A stretch of 64,000 nt of DNA. It comes from Alphaproteobacteria bacterium. GTDB taxonomy: Bacteria > Pseudomonadota > Alphaproteobacteria > Acetobacterales > Acetobacteraceae. Under the pieces are notes generated by a model, which was not told the origin of the DNA, searched no databases, and saw only the letters and a program-made list of their open reading frames with translations. Within the stretch, counting starts at the first letter, position 1, and every line of letters begins with the position of its first letter. Made by a program: the position numbers and the translations under genes. This document shows positions 27,895 through 43,987 of this stretch, piece by piece. The stretch spans positions 1 through 64,000 of the forward strand of contig JADZEB010000034.1 of the NCBI GenBank assembly GCA_020850755.1, written 5' to 3'.

Positions 27895-28020
27895 AGCGGC
27901 GTCCGATCTGGTGGAAACGCAGCGCCGTTCCACCAGATCGGACCAGGCTTCTCGCGAACCTTGGGTTTCTCGGGCACGTTCCGTTCGGCGGGTTCAAGCC
28001 GAACGGAACATGCCCTGGGG
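27891..28020 (-). repeat. Two-hairpin dispersed element, copy 2 (full, minus orientation)
   Basis: Hairpin B at 27905-27939 has perfect 12-bp arms (GATCTGGTGGAA / TTCCACCAGATC). Hairpin A at 27978-28009 also has perfect 12-bp arms (GTTCCGTTCGGC / GCCGAACGGAAC). The B-side border starts CTAGAGCGGCGTCC and includes the TAG stop of the upstream methyltransferase gene. The linker is more diverged than in copies 1 and 3. Confidence 0.85.
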
Positions 28021-38279: not shown

Positions 38280-39602
38280 ATGATCAAACGGGACAGGTCG
38301 AAGGCGCTGTTCGAGCGCGCGGTGAAGGTCATGCCCGGCGGCAACAGCCGCACCACGGTCTGGAGCGCGCCCTTCCCGCTCTATGCCGCGCGCGGGGCGG
38401 GCTGCCGCATCTGGGATGTCGAGGGGGTGGAGCGGCTCGACTTCCTCAACAACTACACCGCCCTGATCCACGGCCATGCCCATCCGGCCATCACCGCGGC
38501 CGTCGCCGCGCAGATCGCCAACGGCACCTGCTTCCCGATGCCGACCGAGGCGGAAGTGGCGCATGCCGAGCTCTTGTGCGCGCGCATCCCTTCGTTCGAG
38601 CGCATCCGCTTCGCCAATACCGGCTCGGAAGCGGTGATGATGGCGGTCAAGCTCGCCCGCGCCCATACCGGGCGGGCCAAGATCGCCAAGACCGAGGGCG
38701 CCTATCACGGCAGCTACGACCCGGTGGAAGTGAGCCAGGACACGCCGCCCGCGCTCTGGGGCAATGGCGATCCGCCCACCACCGCCTATACCAAGGGCAC
38801 GCCCAAGGGCATCCTCGACGATACCATCGTCATCCCCTTCAACAATGCCGAGCAGGCCGAGCGCATCCTGCGCGCGCACCGGCACGAGCTGGCCTGCGTG
38901 CTGGTCGATCCGGTGCCGAACCGCACCGGCATGCTGCCGGCCGATCCGGCCTATCTCGCCACACTGCGCCGCGTCACGCAGGAGCTCGGCGCGCTGCTGG
39001 TCTTCGACGAGGTGATCAGCTTCCGCATCGGCTATCGCGGCGCGCAGGGCGCCTTCGGCATCGAGCCCGACCTGACCAGCGTCGGCAAGATCATGGGCGG
39101 CGGCTTCGCGGTGGGCGCGGTTGCGGGCAAGGCCGAGTTCATGGCGCTGATGGACCCGCGCGCGGGCAAGCCGGCGGTGCCCCATGGCGGCACCTTCAAC
39201 GCCAACCCGGTGACGATGATCGCCGGGCGCATCGCCATGGAGATGATGGACGAGGCCGCCTTCGCGCGCCTGAACGGGCTCGGCGATCGGCTGCGCCGCC
39301 AGGCCGGCGAGGCCTTCGCGGTGGCCGGCGTGCCGGGCCAGATCTGCGGTGCGGGCAGCCTGTTCCGCCTGCACATGACGGCGCGGCGGCTGTTCGACTA
39401 TCGCTCGGCGATCCTTACCCCGGCGGAAAGTGCCGCCACCAAGGCCGTCACCGAGGCGATGCTGGAGGGCGGCATCCTGATCTCGCCGCAGGGCATGGGC
39501 TGCCTTTCCAGCGTCATGGGCGAGGCCGAGGTGGATCGTTTCACCGAGGTGCTGCTGGCGGCCTTGCGGGCGGTGGCGGCGCGCGGCCTTGCCGCCGAGT
39601 AG
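38280..39602 (+). CDS. Class III aminotransferase, glutamate-1-semialdehyde aminomutase-like
   Basis: 440 residues. PLP-dependent fold type I: MPGGNSRTTVWSAPFPLY, FLNNYTALIHGHAHPAI, RFANTGSEAVMMAVKLARAHTGR, EGAYHGSYD, LLVFDEVISFRIGYRGAQG (Asp243 binds the PLP nitrogen), LTSVGKIMGGGFAVGAVAG (Lys270, Schiff base), and GGTFNANPVTMIAG. It resembles HemL, but without the rest of a C5 pathway here and with many homologs acting on other substrates, HemL identity should not be assumed. The GGT-like gene upstream suggests a shared amino-compound pathway (inference). Confidence 0.87.
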   Translation: MIKRDRSKALFERAVKVMPGGNSRTTVWSAPFPLYAARGAGCRIWDVEGVERLDFLNNYTALIHGHAHPAITAAVAAQIANGTCFPMPTEAEVAHAELLCARIPSFERIRFANTGSEAVMMAVKLARAHTGRAKIAKTEGAYHGSYDPVEVSQDTPPALWGNGDPPTTAYTKGTPKGILDDTIVIPFNNAEQAERILRAHRHELACVLVDPVPNRTGMLPADPAYLATLRRVTQELGALLVFDEVISFRIGYRGAQGAFGIEPDLTSVGKIMGGGFAVGAVAGKAEFMALMDPRAGKPAVPHGGTFNANPVTMIAGRIAMEMMDEAAFARLNGLGDRLRRQAGEAFAVAGVPGQICGAGSLFRLHMTARRLFDYRSAILTPAESAATKAVTEAMLEGGILISPQGMGCLSSVMGEAEVDRFTEVLLAALRAVAARGLAAE

Positions 39603-39804
39603 CGCGGTGCCGGAACCGCCCCGCCGCGACCCCGGCCAGCCCTGAGCACGAGCAAGAAAGCCGTTTTCAATCAATATCCTGGGCTTTCGCGGCGGCAGTT
39701 TCGCACGATATTACGAATAATTCAGAAACCGCCCACCGCGGCGCAACACCCCTGCCCGGATACTCGCTCCATCGTCTGCTGCTTGCAGCAGCACGGTGGC
39801 GCGA

Positions 39805-39878
39805 CGGCCCAATCCCGGCAGGCTGTCGCCGCATTGGGCCGGCAGCGATACTACCTCCCCGCTGCCGGCCCAACTTTT
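39805..39878 (+). promoter_or_regulatory. Attenuator-like or sRNA-terminator-like alternative hairpins
   Basis: Three segments: CGGCCCAAT (39805-39813), ATTGGGCCGGCAGCG (39833-39847) and CGCTGCCGGCCCAA (39860-39873) followed by CTTTT. Segment 2 can pair with segment 1 over 9 bp or with segment 3 over 14 bp. The 2:3 hairpin plus T-run is a terminator-like structure, so 1:2 would act as antiterminator. It could instead be the 3' end of a small RNA, or the terminator of the upstream aminotransferase gene. Confidence 0.6.
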
Positions 39879-39949
39879 ACTGTATCCCGCATCACCTCGA
39901 CCTGCCCGCGACGTGCATGATTGCGCTGCGACTGGCCTCGGCGGGGCAA

Positions 39950-39967
39950 GAACATTACAGAATGTTC
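39950..39967. promoter_or_regulatory. 18-bp operator-like palindrome
   Basis: GAACATT-ACAG-AATGTTC has perfect 7-bp arms around a 4-bp centre, 107 bp upstream of the ATG at 40074. It is AT-richer than the surroundings. Such symmetry suggests a dimeric regulator site. It is not the alphaproteobacterial LexA direct repeat. Confidence 0.5.
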
Positions 39968-40073
39968 ATCTTACGAGAATTCCACAAAACGCTTCTTGCT
40001 TGGAACTTGCGGCTGAGAGATTGTTGCAACGACGACATCCGTCGTCTTGCCATCACAAAGGATTCCGCATCCC

Positions 40074-40259
40074 ATGGTTACCCGCCGCAAGGTTCTTGTC
40101 GGCACGTTCGGCGCCCTCGCCGGCGTTGCCGCTCTCGCTGGTGAGGCTGCCGCCCAAGGTGGCTCGACGCCGCCCGCCGGTGGTGGCGGTCAGGGCACGG
40201 CGCGCCGCCGCCGCCGCCGCACCGCCCGCCGCCAGCGCCGCCGCCAGCGCCAGAACTAG
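40074..40259 (+). CDS. Small Tat-signal, arginine-rich secreted protein
   Basis: 61 residues. MVTRRKVLVGTFGALAGVAALAGEAAAQ is a signal peptide with a twin-arginine TRRKVLVG start, a hydrophobic stretch and an AAA cleavage site near residue 27. The mature part is only about 34 residues: a Gly/Pro linker (QGGSTPPAGGGGQGT) and a strongly basic tail (ARRRRRRTARRQRRRQRQN). I recognise no family. The in-frame TTG at 40047 is a possible longer start, but the ATG with AAAGGA upstream fits better. A strong terminator follows, so it is probably monocistronic. Confidence 0.65.
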   Translation: MVTRRKVLVGTFGALAGVAALAGEAAAQGGSTPPAGGGGQGTARRRRRRTARRQRRRQRQN

Positions 40260-41885: not shown

Positions 41886-42446
41886 TCAGATGGCACCGGG
41901 CGCGGAAGCCTGGCGCGGCTTCGGGCGCGGCCGGTCGGCCGCCTGCAGGAGCGCGAGCAGCCCTTCGAGCAGCTGCACGGGAGTGGGCGGGCAGCCGCGG
42001 ATGACGAGGTCGACCGGCACCGCTGCCTCGATCCCACCGGCCACCGCGTAGCTGCCGGCGAACACCCCGCCATTGGCGGCGCAATCGCCCACCGCCACCA
42101 CCCATTTCGGATCGGGCGTGCAGTCGTAAGCGCGCAAGAGCGCCTCGTGCATGTTGCGCGTCAGCGGGCCGGTCACCATCAGCACGTCGGCATGCTTCGG
42201 GCTGGCGACGAATTTCAGCCCGAACCGCTCCAGGTCGTAGACGATGGAGTTGAGCATGTGGATCTCCAGCTCGCAGCCATTGCACGAGCCCGCATCCACC
42301 TGGCGGATGGCGAGGCTGCGCCCTAGCCGCTCGCGCGCGCTCGCCTCGATCGCACGCGCAAGCTCCTCGGCGGCGCGGTCGGGCAGGGCCGGCGCGCGCT
42401 CGGTCGCCGGGCCGTCGATCAGGGTGCGGGCGAAGCGGCGCCACAT
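41886..42446 (-). CDS. HyfI/NuoB-like iron-sulfur small subunit of an Ehr-type complex
   Basis: 186 residues. The proximal [4Fe-4S] (N2-like) ligands are all kept: GSCNGCELEIHML (Cys55, Cys58), GDCAANGG (Cys122) and RGCPPTPVQLLEGL (Cys152). AIRQVDAGSCNGCELE and VTGPLTRNMHEALLRAYD are typical of HycG/HyfI/NuoB. It would transfer electrons inside the peripheral arm. The ATG at 42446 lies 2 bp after the stop of the hyfG-like gene. Last gene of the six-gene operon. It has a 20-residue Pro/Ala C-terminal tail. Confidence 0.9.
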   Translation of the reverse strand: MWRRFARTLIDGPATERAPALPDRAAEELARAIEASARERLGRSLAIRQVDAGSCNGCELEIHMLNSIVYDLERFGLKFVASPKHADVLMVTGPLTRNMHEALLRAYDCTPDPKWVVAVGDCAANGGVFAGSYAVAGGIEAAVPVDLVIRGCPPTPVQLLEGLLALLQAADRPRPKPRQASAPGAI

Positions 42447-42448
42447 GG

Positions 42449-43987
42449 CTACAGGTCCACGCCGGAATAGGAGCAGTTGAAGCTCTTGTTGCAGAGCGGG
42501 AAGTCGGGAACGATGTTGTCCTCGATCGCCGCTTCCAGCAACGGCCATTGCAGCCAGGACGGATCGCGCAGGAAGGCGCCGCGCAGGATCGCGCTCTCGT
42601 CCAGCCGCACCCAGGCGAACACCTCGCCGCGGAAGCTCTCGGCCATCGCCGCGCCCTCGCCCGCGGCGGCCGCCAGCGGCACCAGCACCGGCCCGTGCGG
42701 CAGGTCGGCCAGGATCGCGCGCACAAGCTTGATACTCTCCTGCAGTTCGGCCAGCCGCACGCGCACGCGCGCATCGACATCGCCCTCGGCGAACACCGGC
42801 ACGGCGAAGTCGAGCGCGTCATAGGGCGCGTAGCCGGGCGATTTGCGGCAATCGAAGCCGCGGCTGGCCGCGCGCCCGACATGGCCGCCGGCGGCGAAGC
42901 GCGCGACAAGCTGCGCCGAGACCGCGCCTGTGCCGACCACGCGATCGACCAGCGAGGCATAGTTCTCGTAGGTCGCGATCAGGTCGGGCAGCTCGGCCTC
43001 GATCGCGGCCAGCGCGCGCTCGATCGCATCGGGGCCGAGCAGCGTCAGGTCGTCGGCAATCCCGCCCGGCAGCACGCGGTCCATCATCAGCCGGTGCCCG
43101 AAGGCGGTGGCGGCGGCGCGCAACACGCCCTCGCGCAGCAGGCCGGTGCGCGCATGGATGAAGGCGAAGGCGGCGTCGTTGCAGACGAAGCCGAAATCAT
43201 GCAGGTGGTTGGCGATGCGCTCGATCTCGGCCATCAGCGCGCGCAGCCACACCGCGCGCGTGGGCGCGGCAACGCCAAGGGCGGCTTCCACGGCGCGCGC
43301 ATAGGCGATCGAGTAGGCGACGGTGGCATCGCCCGAGATGCGCGCGGCGAAGGTGGCGGCGGCGCGGGCGGGCTTGCCGATCATCAAGCCCAGCGTGCCC
43401 TTGTGGACATAGCCGAGCCGCTGCTCCAGCCGCGCCACCATCTCGCCCTGCGCGGTGAAGCGGAAATGGCCCGGCTCGATGATGCCGGCATGGATCGGGC
43501 CGACCGGGATCTGGTGCAGGCTCTCGCCCTCGACCGGCAGGAAGGCGGGTTGCGGCGCATCAGTGGGCGCGGGCGGCGCCTCGCGCCGGGCCGGCCGCGC
43601 CGCCATCGGGGCGGCCAGCGCCCAGCGGCCATGATCGAGCCAGGGGCGGAGATCGACCGCATCGGTGGCGACAAGGCCCCAGAGGTCGCGCACCATCCGC
43701 TCGAAGCGCACCGCGCCCGGCCGCAGCGGGGACAGGGCCGGGTAGGTGCCATCCGGACAGGCGAGGGAGAACAGGACGAACTCCTCCTCCTCCTCGTGGC
43801 GCAGCGCGCAAAGCACCACCCCCGGCTCGGCCCAGAGCGACAGCAGTTCAAGCCGCGCATCGGCGGCGAGCAGCAGCAAAAGACGTTCCCATTGCGGGCG
43901 GTCGAGCCGCGCATGCGCCCAGGGGCGGCAGGGCATGGCGGTGCCCTGGCCGAGCAGGGCGCGAAGCTCCTCGATGCGCGGGTCCAT
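42449..43987 (-). CDS. HyfG/NuoCD-like large subunit lacking most NiFe ligands
   Basis: 512 residues, a NuoC-like domain (about 1-115) fused to a NuoD/hydrogenase-large-subunit domain (HQIPVGPIHAGIIEPGHFRF ... LEQRLGYVHKGTLGLM). In NiFe hydrogenases the active-site motifs are RxCGxC and DPCxxC. Here the first reads RISGDA (Ser218 and Ala221 replace the Cys), and the C-terminal motif reads FNCSYS (Cys505 kept, Ser508 replaces Cys). Three of four ligands are missing, so no Ni-Fe centre is expected. This is as in energy-converting-hydrogenase-related complexes and complex I. The real electron donor or acceptor is unknown. Confidence 0.9.
   Translation of the reverse strand: MDPRIEELRALLGQGTAMPCRPWAHARLDRPQWERLLLLLAADARLELLSLWAEPGVVLCALRHEEEEEFVLFSLACPDGTYPALSPLRPGAVRFERMVRDLWGLVATDAVDLRPWLDHGRWALAAPMAARPARREAPPAPTDAPQPAFLPVEGESLHQIPVGPIHAGIIEPGHFRFTAQGEMVARLEQRLGYVHKGTLGLMIGKPARAAATFAARISGDATVAYSIAYARAVEAALGVAAPTRAVWLRALMAEIERIANHLHDFGFVCNDAAFAFIHARTGLLREGVLRAAATAFGHRLMMDRVLPGGIADDLTLLGPDAIERALAAIEAELPDLIATYENYASLVDRVVGTGAVSAQLVARFAAGGHVGRAASRGFDCRKSPGYAPYDALDFAVPVFAEGDVDARVRVRLAELQESIKLVRAILADLPHGPVLVPLAAAAGEGAAMAESFRGEVFAWVRLDESAILRGAFLRDPSWLQWPLLEAAIEDNIVPDFPLCNKSFNCSYSGVDL

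Follow-up and report, generated by a model that had tools for sequence, protein, structure and literature searches.

What is encoded in the intergenic stretch between an aminotransferase gene and a short open reading frame (ORF) of this Acetobacteraceae genome, where hairpins crowd together on the plus strand? The family comprises acetic acid, acid-loving and Roseomonas-type bacteria, and the stretch lies in the 64,000-nucleotide piece of DNA that we analysed as a whole (the window). A preliminary description offered two readings, a transcription attenuator with mutually exclusive hairpins or the end of a small RNA. Structure and conservation, both read directly from the sequence, point to the second. 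Positions 39769-39878 (+) are probably an independently transcribed small RNA (sRNA) of about 110-150 nt, which belongs to a family-wide sRNA family and would act in trans on mRNAs. The features of the locus are as follows.

38280-39602: upstream neighbour, aminotransferase gene (Pfam Aminotran_3)
39710-39724, plus strand: upstream element ATTACGAATAATTCA (ATKRC-N6-KTMA), a candidate promoter or regulator site for the sRNA, seen in 25/34 upstream regions
39769-39799, plus strand: 5' hairpin of the sRNA (folding), with a hairpin here in many relatives too
39801-39829, plus strand: hairpin A with a 9-bp stem, its loop 39810-39820 (CAAUCCCGGCA) carrying the conserved UCCCGGC (covariation in relatives; found by model R2, below)
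39805-39841, plus strand: alternative pairing of the preliminary description, 39805-39813 with 39833-39841, in the window only (1/34) and 9 kcal/mol weaker
39834-39873, plus strand: terminator hairpin with a 14-bp stem and a 12-nt loop, 39848-39859 (AUACUACCUCCC), exposing the anti-Shine-Dalgarno-like ACCUCCC (folding)
39874-39881, plus strand: U-rich tail CUUUUACU, the presumed RNA 3' end
39954-39968, plus strand: ATTACAGAATGTTCA, the upstream element repeated ahead of the short ORF, with a presumed similar role
40074-40259, plus strand: arginine-rich ORF of 61 residues whose start resembles a Tat signal, candidate secreted, probably not controlled by the terminator
41886-42548, minus strand: NuoB/HyfI-like gene, a conserved convergent neighbour in relatives (Pfam PF01058; tblastn)

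The pairings reported earlier, 9 bp between segments 1 and 2 and 14 bp between segments 2 and 3 with CTTTT behind them, are correct in coordinates and complementarity. Segment 1 (39805-39813, CGGCCCAAT) is exactly complementary to 39833-39841, and 39834-39847 is exactly complementary to 39860-39873, which is followed by CTTTTACTG. An upstream hairpin had also been noted at 39776-39791; the hairpin exists, but this extent is only the top of one that folds over 39769-39799. The intergenic stretch does have the lower GC content ascribed to it (0.603 for 39603-40073 versus 0.729 for the whole window). Three plus-strand hairpins lie between the aminotransferase gene and the 61-residue ORF, namely 39769-39799, 39801-39829 and 39834-39873. 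The middle one is absent from the preliminary description; it uses segment 1 and competes with the pairing of segments 1 and 2. The fold of 39760-39885 has a z score of -6.6, with none of 200 shuffles as good. ACCUCCC is found in the terminator loop only, of the three hairpin loops. Only two perfect stems of at least 14 bp with a loop of 3-15 nt exist in the 64 kb, and of 20 dinucleotide shuffles just one contains any. The second, besides the terminator hairpin, is a perfect inverted repeat at 27901-27943, with 16 bp in the stem and 11 nt in the loop.

A first covariance model, R1, used the window as its only sequence. Run against 394 genomes of the family, it gave matches that clustered in two genera, g69 and g121. 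The aligned RNA of these genera has a hairpin with the loop CUUUCCCGGC and a terminator loop with ACCUCCC, and is located behind a gene that we take from its sequence to be leuD-like. Unlike in g69 and g121, no sRNA copy was found behind either of the two leuD-like genes of the window's genome. The second model, R2, was made from nine g69/g121 relatives with the window left out. It recovers 39793-39880 of the window with a score of 55.4 bits (E 3.3e-12), no other place in the window scoring above 15.7 bits, and the match in the window's own genome has an E value of 2.3e-10. At E ≤ 0.01, R2 matches 20 of the 394 genomes: the window's, 10 of g69/g121 (nine being the training set) and 9 weaker ones, five of which (genera g17 and g119) share the hairpin with loops such as CUUUUUCCCGGCA. 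Four of the 20 genomes were not accepted at the place matched (G005, G087, G400 and G125, the last with two matches); an accepted member of G125, L146, lies at another place.

The third model, R3, describes hairpin A alone and was built from six sequences, the window among them. We ran it against 130 family genomes and a sample of 96 genomes from across the class, of which 94 belong to other families. As some match at E ≤ 1 appears in 84 of the 130 family genomes, weak R3 matches mean little, and only the 30 matches made into loci (E up to 0.021) were considered. Acceptance required UCCCGGC in the loop and a terminator downstream. This gave 22 of the 130 family genomes with one locus each, from 18 of 102 genera, including three (G000, G011 and G016) that were in the R3 training set. 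Loci L152, L158, L159, L160, L161, L163 and L164 were rejected by eye for want of the loop or the terminator, and L162 because it is the same place as the rluD-like match described below. Outside the family (94 genomes) the best E value was 0.016, and none of the 8 best loci viewed had loop and terminator together. Adding the other members of g17, g69, g119 and g121 to the 22 R3 loci gives a family of 34 members in 19 genera. The UCCCGGC loop was required for acceptance, so its presence in 34/34 follows in part from that choice. The covariation, the terminator, the synteny and the upstream element do not follow from acceptance by this loop. Looking for homologous loci by synteny, through the aminotransferase or the 61-residue protein, yielded none.

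Hairpin A carries the covariation. Among the nine relatives 7 of its 11 pairs changed on both sides, with 19 cells, a number reached by 0/500 shuffles; the count of 7 double-changed pairs itself was reached by 47/500. The terminator stem is hardly variable in these nine sequences and therefore says little on covariation. Across the wider set, 8 of 10 pairs of hairpin A change on both sides (0/500 shuffles) in alignment A7 of 28 rows, which was fitted with R3 and leans towards the structure. Two of its 28 rows are antisense (L125 + and L137 +), and 8 of the 34 loci submitted fell below threshold. Hairpin A thus shows the conserved structure with covariation that is one criterion for a trans-acting bacterial sRNA. 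The second criterion, an intrinsic terminator at the 3' end, is found in 34/34 members, GC-rich and with a U-rich tail. The exposed ACCUCCC terminator loop occurs in 11 of the 34 (the window, g69 and g121), and most of the wider members have an extra hairpin between hairpin A and the terminator and a short terminator loop. The earlier suggestion of the end of a small RNA is borne out to this extent, as homologues that combine the covarying hairpin with a terminator are present in 19 genera.

The element ATKRC-N6-KTMA (T allowed for C) stands 78-174 nt before the loop in 25 of the 34 upstream regions, versus 0.25% of shuffles. Elsewhere in 33 loci it occurs about 16 times in 193,822 strand-bases (40 in all). 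Because the motif was read off the same sequences before counting, these counts overstate it, and its fixed spacing is the better argument. A sigma-70 promoter scan at the locus found no promoter. The upstream element suggests that the sRNA has its own promoter. Likewise, the second copy at 39954-39968 suggests that the 61-residue ORF has its own promoter behind the terminator. This copy is closer in sequence to the upstream regions of the g121 sRNA than the copy at 39710-39724 is.

For transcription, targets and mechanism we infer the following course. The RNA would have a promoter of its own; transcription would start somewhere from about 39735 to 39768 and end near 39880. By analogy with known sRNAs, the C-rich loops (UCCCGGC, and ACCUCCC in the window, g69 and g121) may pair with the G-rich ribosome-binding regions of target mRNAs and, acting in trans, would lower their translation. 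The U tract of the terminator is short (CUUUUACU), which counts against the sRNA reading. A target search of the 64-kb window found no loop-complementary sites at gene starts. The complement of the hairpin A loop, TGCCGGGATTG, with one mismatch occurs 12 times in the window (itself included) versus 2.4 expected (0/100 shuffles); these occurrences lie on both strands, off gene starts, and perhaps reflect codon usage.

A DNA similarity search of the locus gave as its best foreign matches the antisense strand of a coding sequence that, from a protein motif, we take to be rluD-like. In the window's own genome (G000:C51:25230-25269, L002), 39809-39847 matches this strand at 85% over 40 nt with 42.8 bits. 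Dinucleotide shuffles reach at least 38 bits in 1% of cases in 0.53 Mb, so the match is borderline in 4.5 Mb. The predicted duplex of sRNA and rluD-like mRNA has -104 kcal/mol versus a mean of -69.9 and a best of -88.8 for 200 shuffles, and by this prediction the sRNA could form a duplex of about 40 nt with the mRNA. The sRNA family does not preserve the 3' arm that matches. We treat the match as a probable coincidence, as it is borderline against shuffles and its 3' arm is unkept.

The sRNA might also be cut from the 3' end of an upstream mRNA and not come from its own promoter. In L129, L135 and L136 (g12/g17) the hairpin follows directly on a small secreted-protein gene, with the RNA starting 22-32 nt behind it, so that there it could be processed from the mRNA 3' end. 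A precedent exists in the CcsR RNAs, which are processed behind ccaF1 according to the available part of one source (PMC10253847). We nevertheless consider this origin unlikely for the family: the upstream genes of the members differ, the upstream element with its fixed internal spacing is found in 25/34, and a gap of 166 nt lies between the aminotransferase stop and the first hairpin of the window.

Small secreted arginine-rich ORFs adjoin the sRNA downstream in the window and upstream in g12 and g17 (L129, L131 and L136). These ORFs differ in sequence and belong to no Pfam family (two tested besides the window's). The 61-residue ORF with a signal-like start that was described earlier is present and begins at 40074. 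Its product has no Pfam match up to E 10 and no NCBIfam match, and a search of 199 other genomes of the family gave no homologue at E ≤ 0.001.

The downstream side of the putative sRNA shows a recurrent neighbour. With the window proteins as tblastn queries and flanks of ~1.5 kb, the NuoB/HyfI-like gene is convergent downstream in 14 of 24 other loci, from 9 genera; in the remaining 10 of 24 none lies within the ~1.5-kb flank. In the window an amidase gene stands between the sRNA and this gene, whose operon continues with a Complex1_49kDa-type gene and a hydrogenase 4 subunit F gene. Since convergence of the sRNA with the NuoB/HyfI-like gene has persisted in 9 other genera and in the window (there behind the amidase gene), a core family-wide sRNA could be tied to a hydrogenase-4-like respiratory operon. 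The RNA or terminator read-through would set the expression of the operon, and the extra 9-bp pairing of the window would delay the terminator and tune read-through. We regard this extended proposal as improbable.

Very unlikely, and unsupported by our results, is a transcription attenuator of the 61-residue gene, in which the pairing of segments 1 and 2 would be the antiterminator, that of segments 2 and 3 the terminator, and a ligand, a protein or the ribosome the switch. The window holds both pairings, and an ORF on the same strand follows 195 nt downstream. In folding of a truncated transcript with ends at 39840-39867, segment 1 pairs with segment 2 by preference. Once the 3' arm of the terminator is present, however, the mean probability of these pairs falls near 1e-6. 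The three-hairpin form has -65.7 kcal/mol versus -56.6 kcal/mol for the best fold that keeps segments 1 and 2 paired, a lead of 9 kcal/mol for the terminator fold, so, judged by these energies, the pairing of segments 1 and 2 would exist at most transiently while the RNA folds.

Conservation argues in the same direction. The preliminary description had proposed covariation of the pairings in relatives as a check of the attenuator, and counted a lack of conservation of the alternative pairing against it. We find this pairing in 1 of 34 members, the window alone, and it is absent in 33/33 relatives. When hairpin A and the 5' arm of the terminator are matched by Watson-Crick pairs alone, the window forms a helix of at most 9 bp, and the 33 others stop at 5-6 bp, the shuffle level. 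When the hairpin-A stretch is shuffled, 0.7% of 300 sequences attain an alternative pairing of 9 bp, which is unusual for one sequence and not overwhelming for a feature picked from 64 kb. In truncated transcripts the terminator 5' arm is mostly paired with hairpin A (mean probability >0.5) in 6 of 34 members, the window among the 6. By this modelling a loose competition between hairpin A and the terminator arm may exist in the family, while the specific antiterminator is unconserved.

The neighbours also speak against attenuation. Downstream of the terminator the window has a same-strand ORF, whereas 14 of the 24 other loci have the convergent gene; since the NuoB/HyfI-like gene lies on the other strand, the terminator cannot attenuate it. 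The second copy of the upstream element sits between the terminator and the 61-residue ORF. As for the riboswitch that had been mentioned as a possibility, none is found at the Rfam gathering score. That the locus is a mere terminator of the upstream gene with decorative hairpins and no RNA function is likewise very unlikely: most operons do end in strong terminator-like hairpins and the GC-rich stem is usual for this DNA, but an unpaired loop and a covarying stem are kept in 19 genera whatever the upstream gene.

Does the proposed trans-acting sRNA belong to a known family? At gathering score Rfam 15 gives no family for the window or for the loci of five relatives, and we reject a known Rfam family for these on that basis. 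Literature searches on anti-Shine-Dalgarno (anti-SD) sRNAs of Alphaproteobacteria, on Acetobacteraceae sRNAs and on the loop string yielded no description of this sRNA. For Gluconobacter oxydans, 24 intergenic novel transcription starts are given in the available part of a report (PMC5756330). The best Rfam matches of the window are weak, with CcsR1 at 27.8 bits (E 8e-5 for 481 bases searched). When the family was scanned with RF02344 and RF02791, all matches lay under the cut-off; these scans carry little weight, because the window was not among their matches. In one genome of another family of the class (G057), four tandem CcsR1-like RNAs (L014, L022, L023 and L046) lie within about 400 bases, at 43.9-52.0 bits and all under the Rfam cut-off.

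CcsR1 (RF02791) and the 'cuckoo' RNAs of Alphaproteobacteria resemble the window in being short RNAs with a GC-rich terminator hairpin and an exposed loop that contains CCUCCC. The score of 27.8 bits is nevertheless below the gathering score of 65.3. Cuckoo RNAs have CCUCCUCCC in a hairpin loop, while the window lacks CCUCCUCCC, has CAAUCCCGGCA and AUACUACCUCCC as loops, and carries UCCCGGC in its other hairpin. As far as the excerpted account goes, cuckoo RNAs often adjoin a short DUF1127 gene and CcsR RNAs are linked to stress defence (PMC10253847). No DUF1127 gene stands beside the RNA in the window, given the failure of its 61-residue neighbour to match Pfam. Loops with CCUCCUCCC are described as anti-SD in rhizobial sRNAs in the accessible portion of another study (PMC3927594).

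The ar14/NfeR1 family (RF02344) shares the three-hairpin layout, which aligns over the whole model at 27.8 bits, as well as variable stems with kept loops; its gathering score of 58.8 is not reached. Its anti-SD motif is unpaired in all three loops and acts on translation starts, as stated in the part of the source at hand (PMC7143759), whereas here the motif is confined to the terminator loop of 11/34 members. ar7 (RF02342) has a terminator loop with CCUCC and matches the window at 22.5 bits with E 0.02, short of the gathering score of 60. RcsR1 (RF02552) weakly matches one relative, L142, at 27.8 bits, under its gathering score of 60, and does not match the window up to E 5.

The closest likeness outside Rfam concerns the attenuator. 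Premature transcription stop before a small arginine-rich gene of an alphaproteobacterium is known from Sinorhizobium meliloti, where a uORF controls the attenuator of a DUF1127 gene (PMC12218461, in excerpt). According to that excerpt, the S. meliloti system needs a translated uORF and, as proposed, Rho (PMC12218461), whereas the window has an intrinsic terminator; the window also has neither a conserved alternative pairing nor a DUF1127 match.

If the sRNA reading is right, at least 19 genera of one alphaproteobacterial family share a conserved regulatory RNA that no Rfam 15 entry covers at gathering score. The preserved loop, the covarying stem and the common upstream element would provide a ready model, seed and regulatory site. 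The RNA would combine an anti-Shine-Dalgarno-type loop, in part of its members, with UCCCGGC, another conserved loop, which the compared anti-SD families lack.
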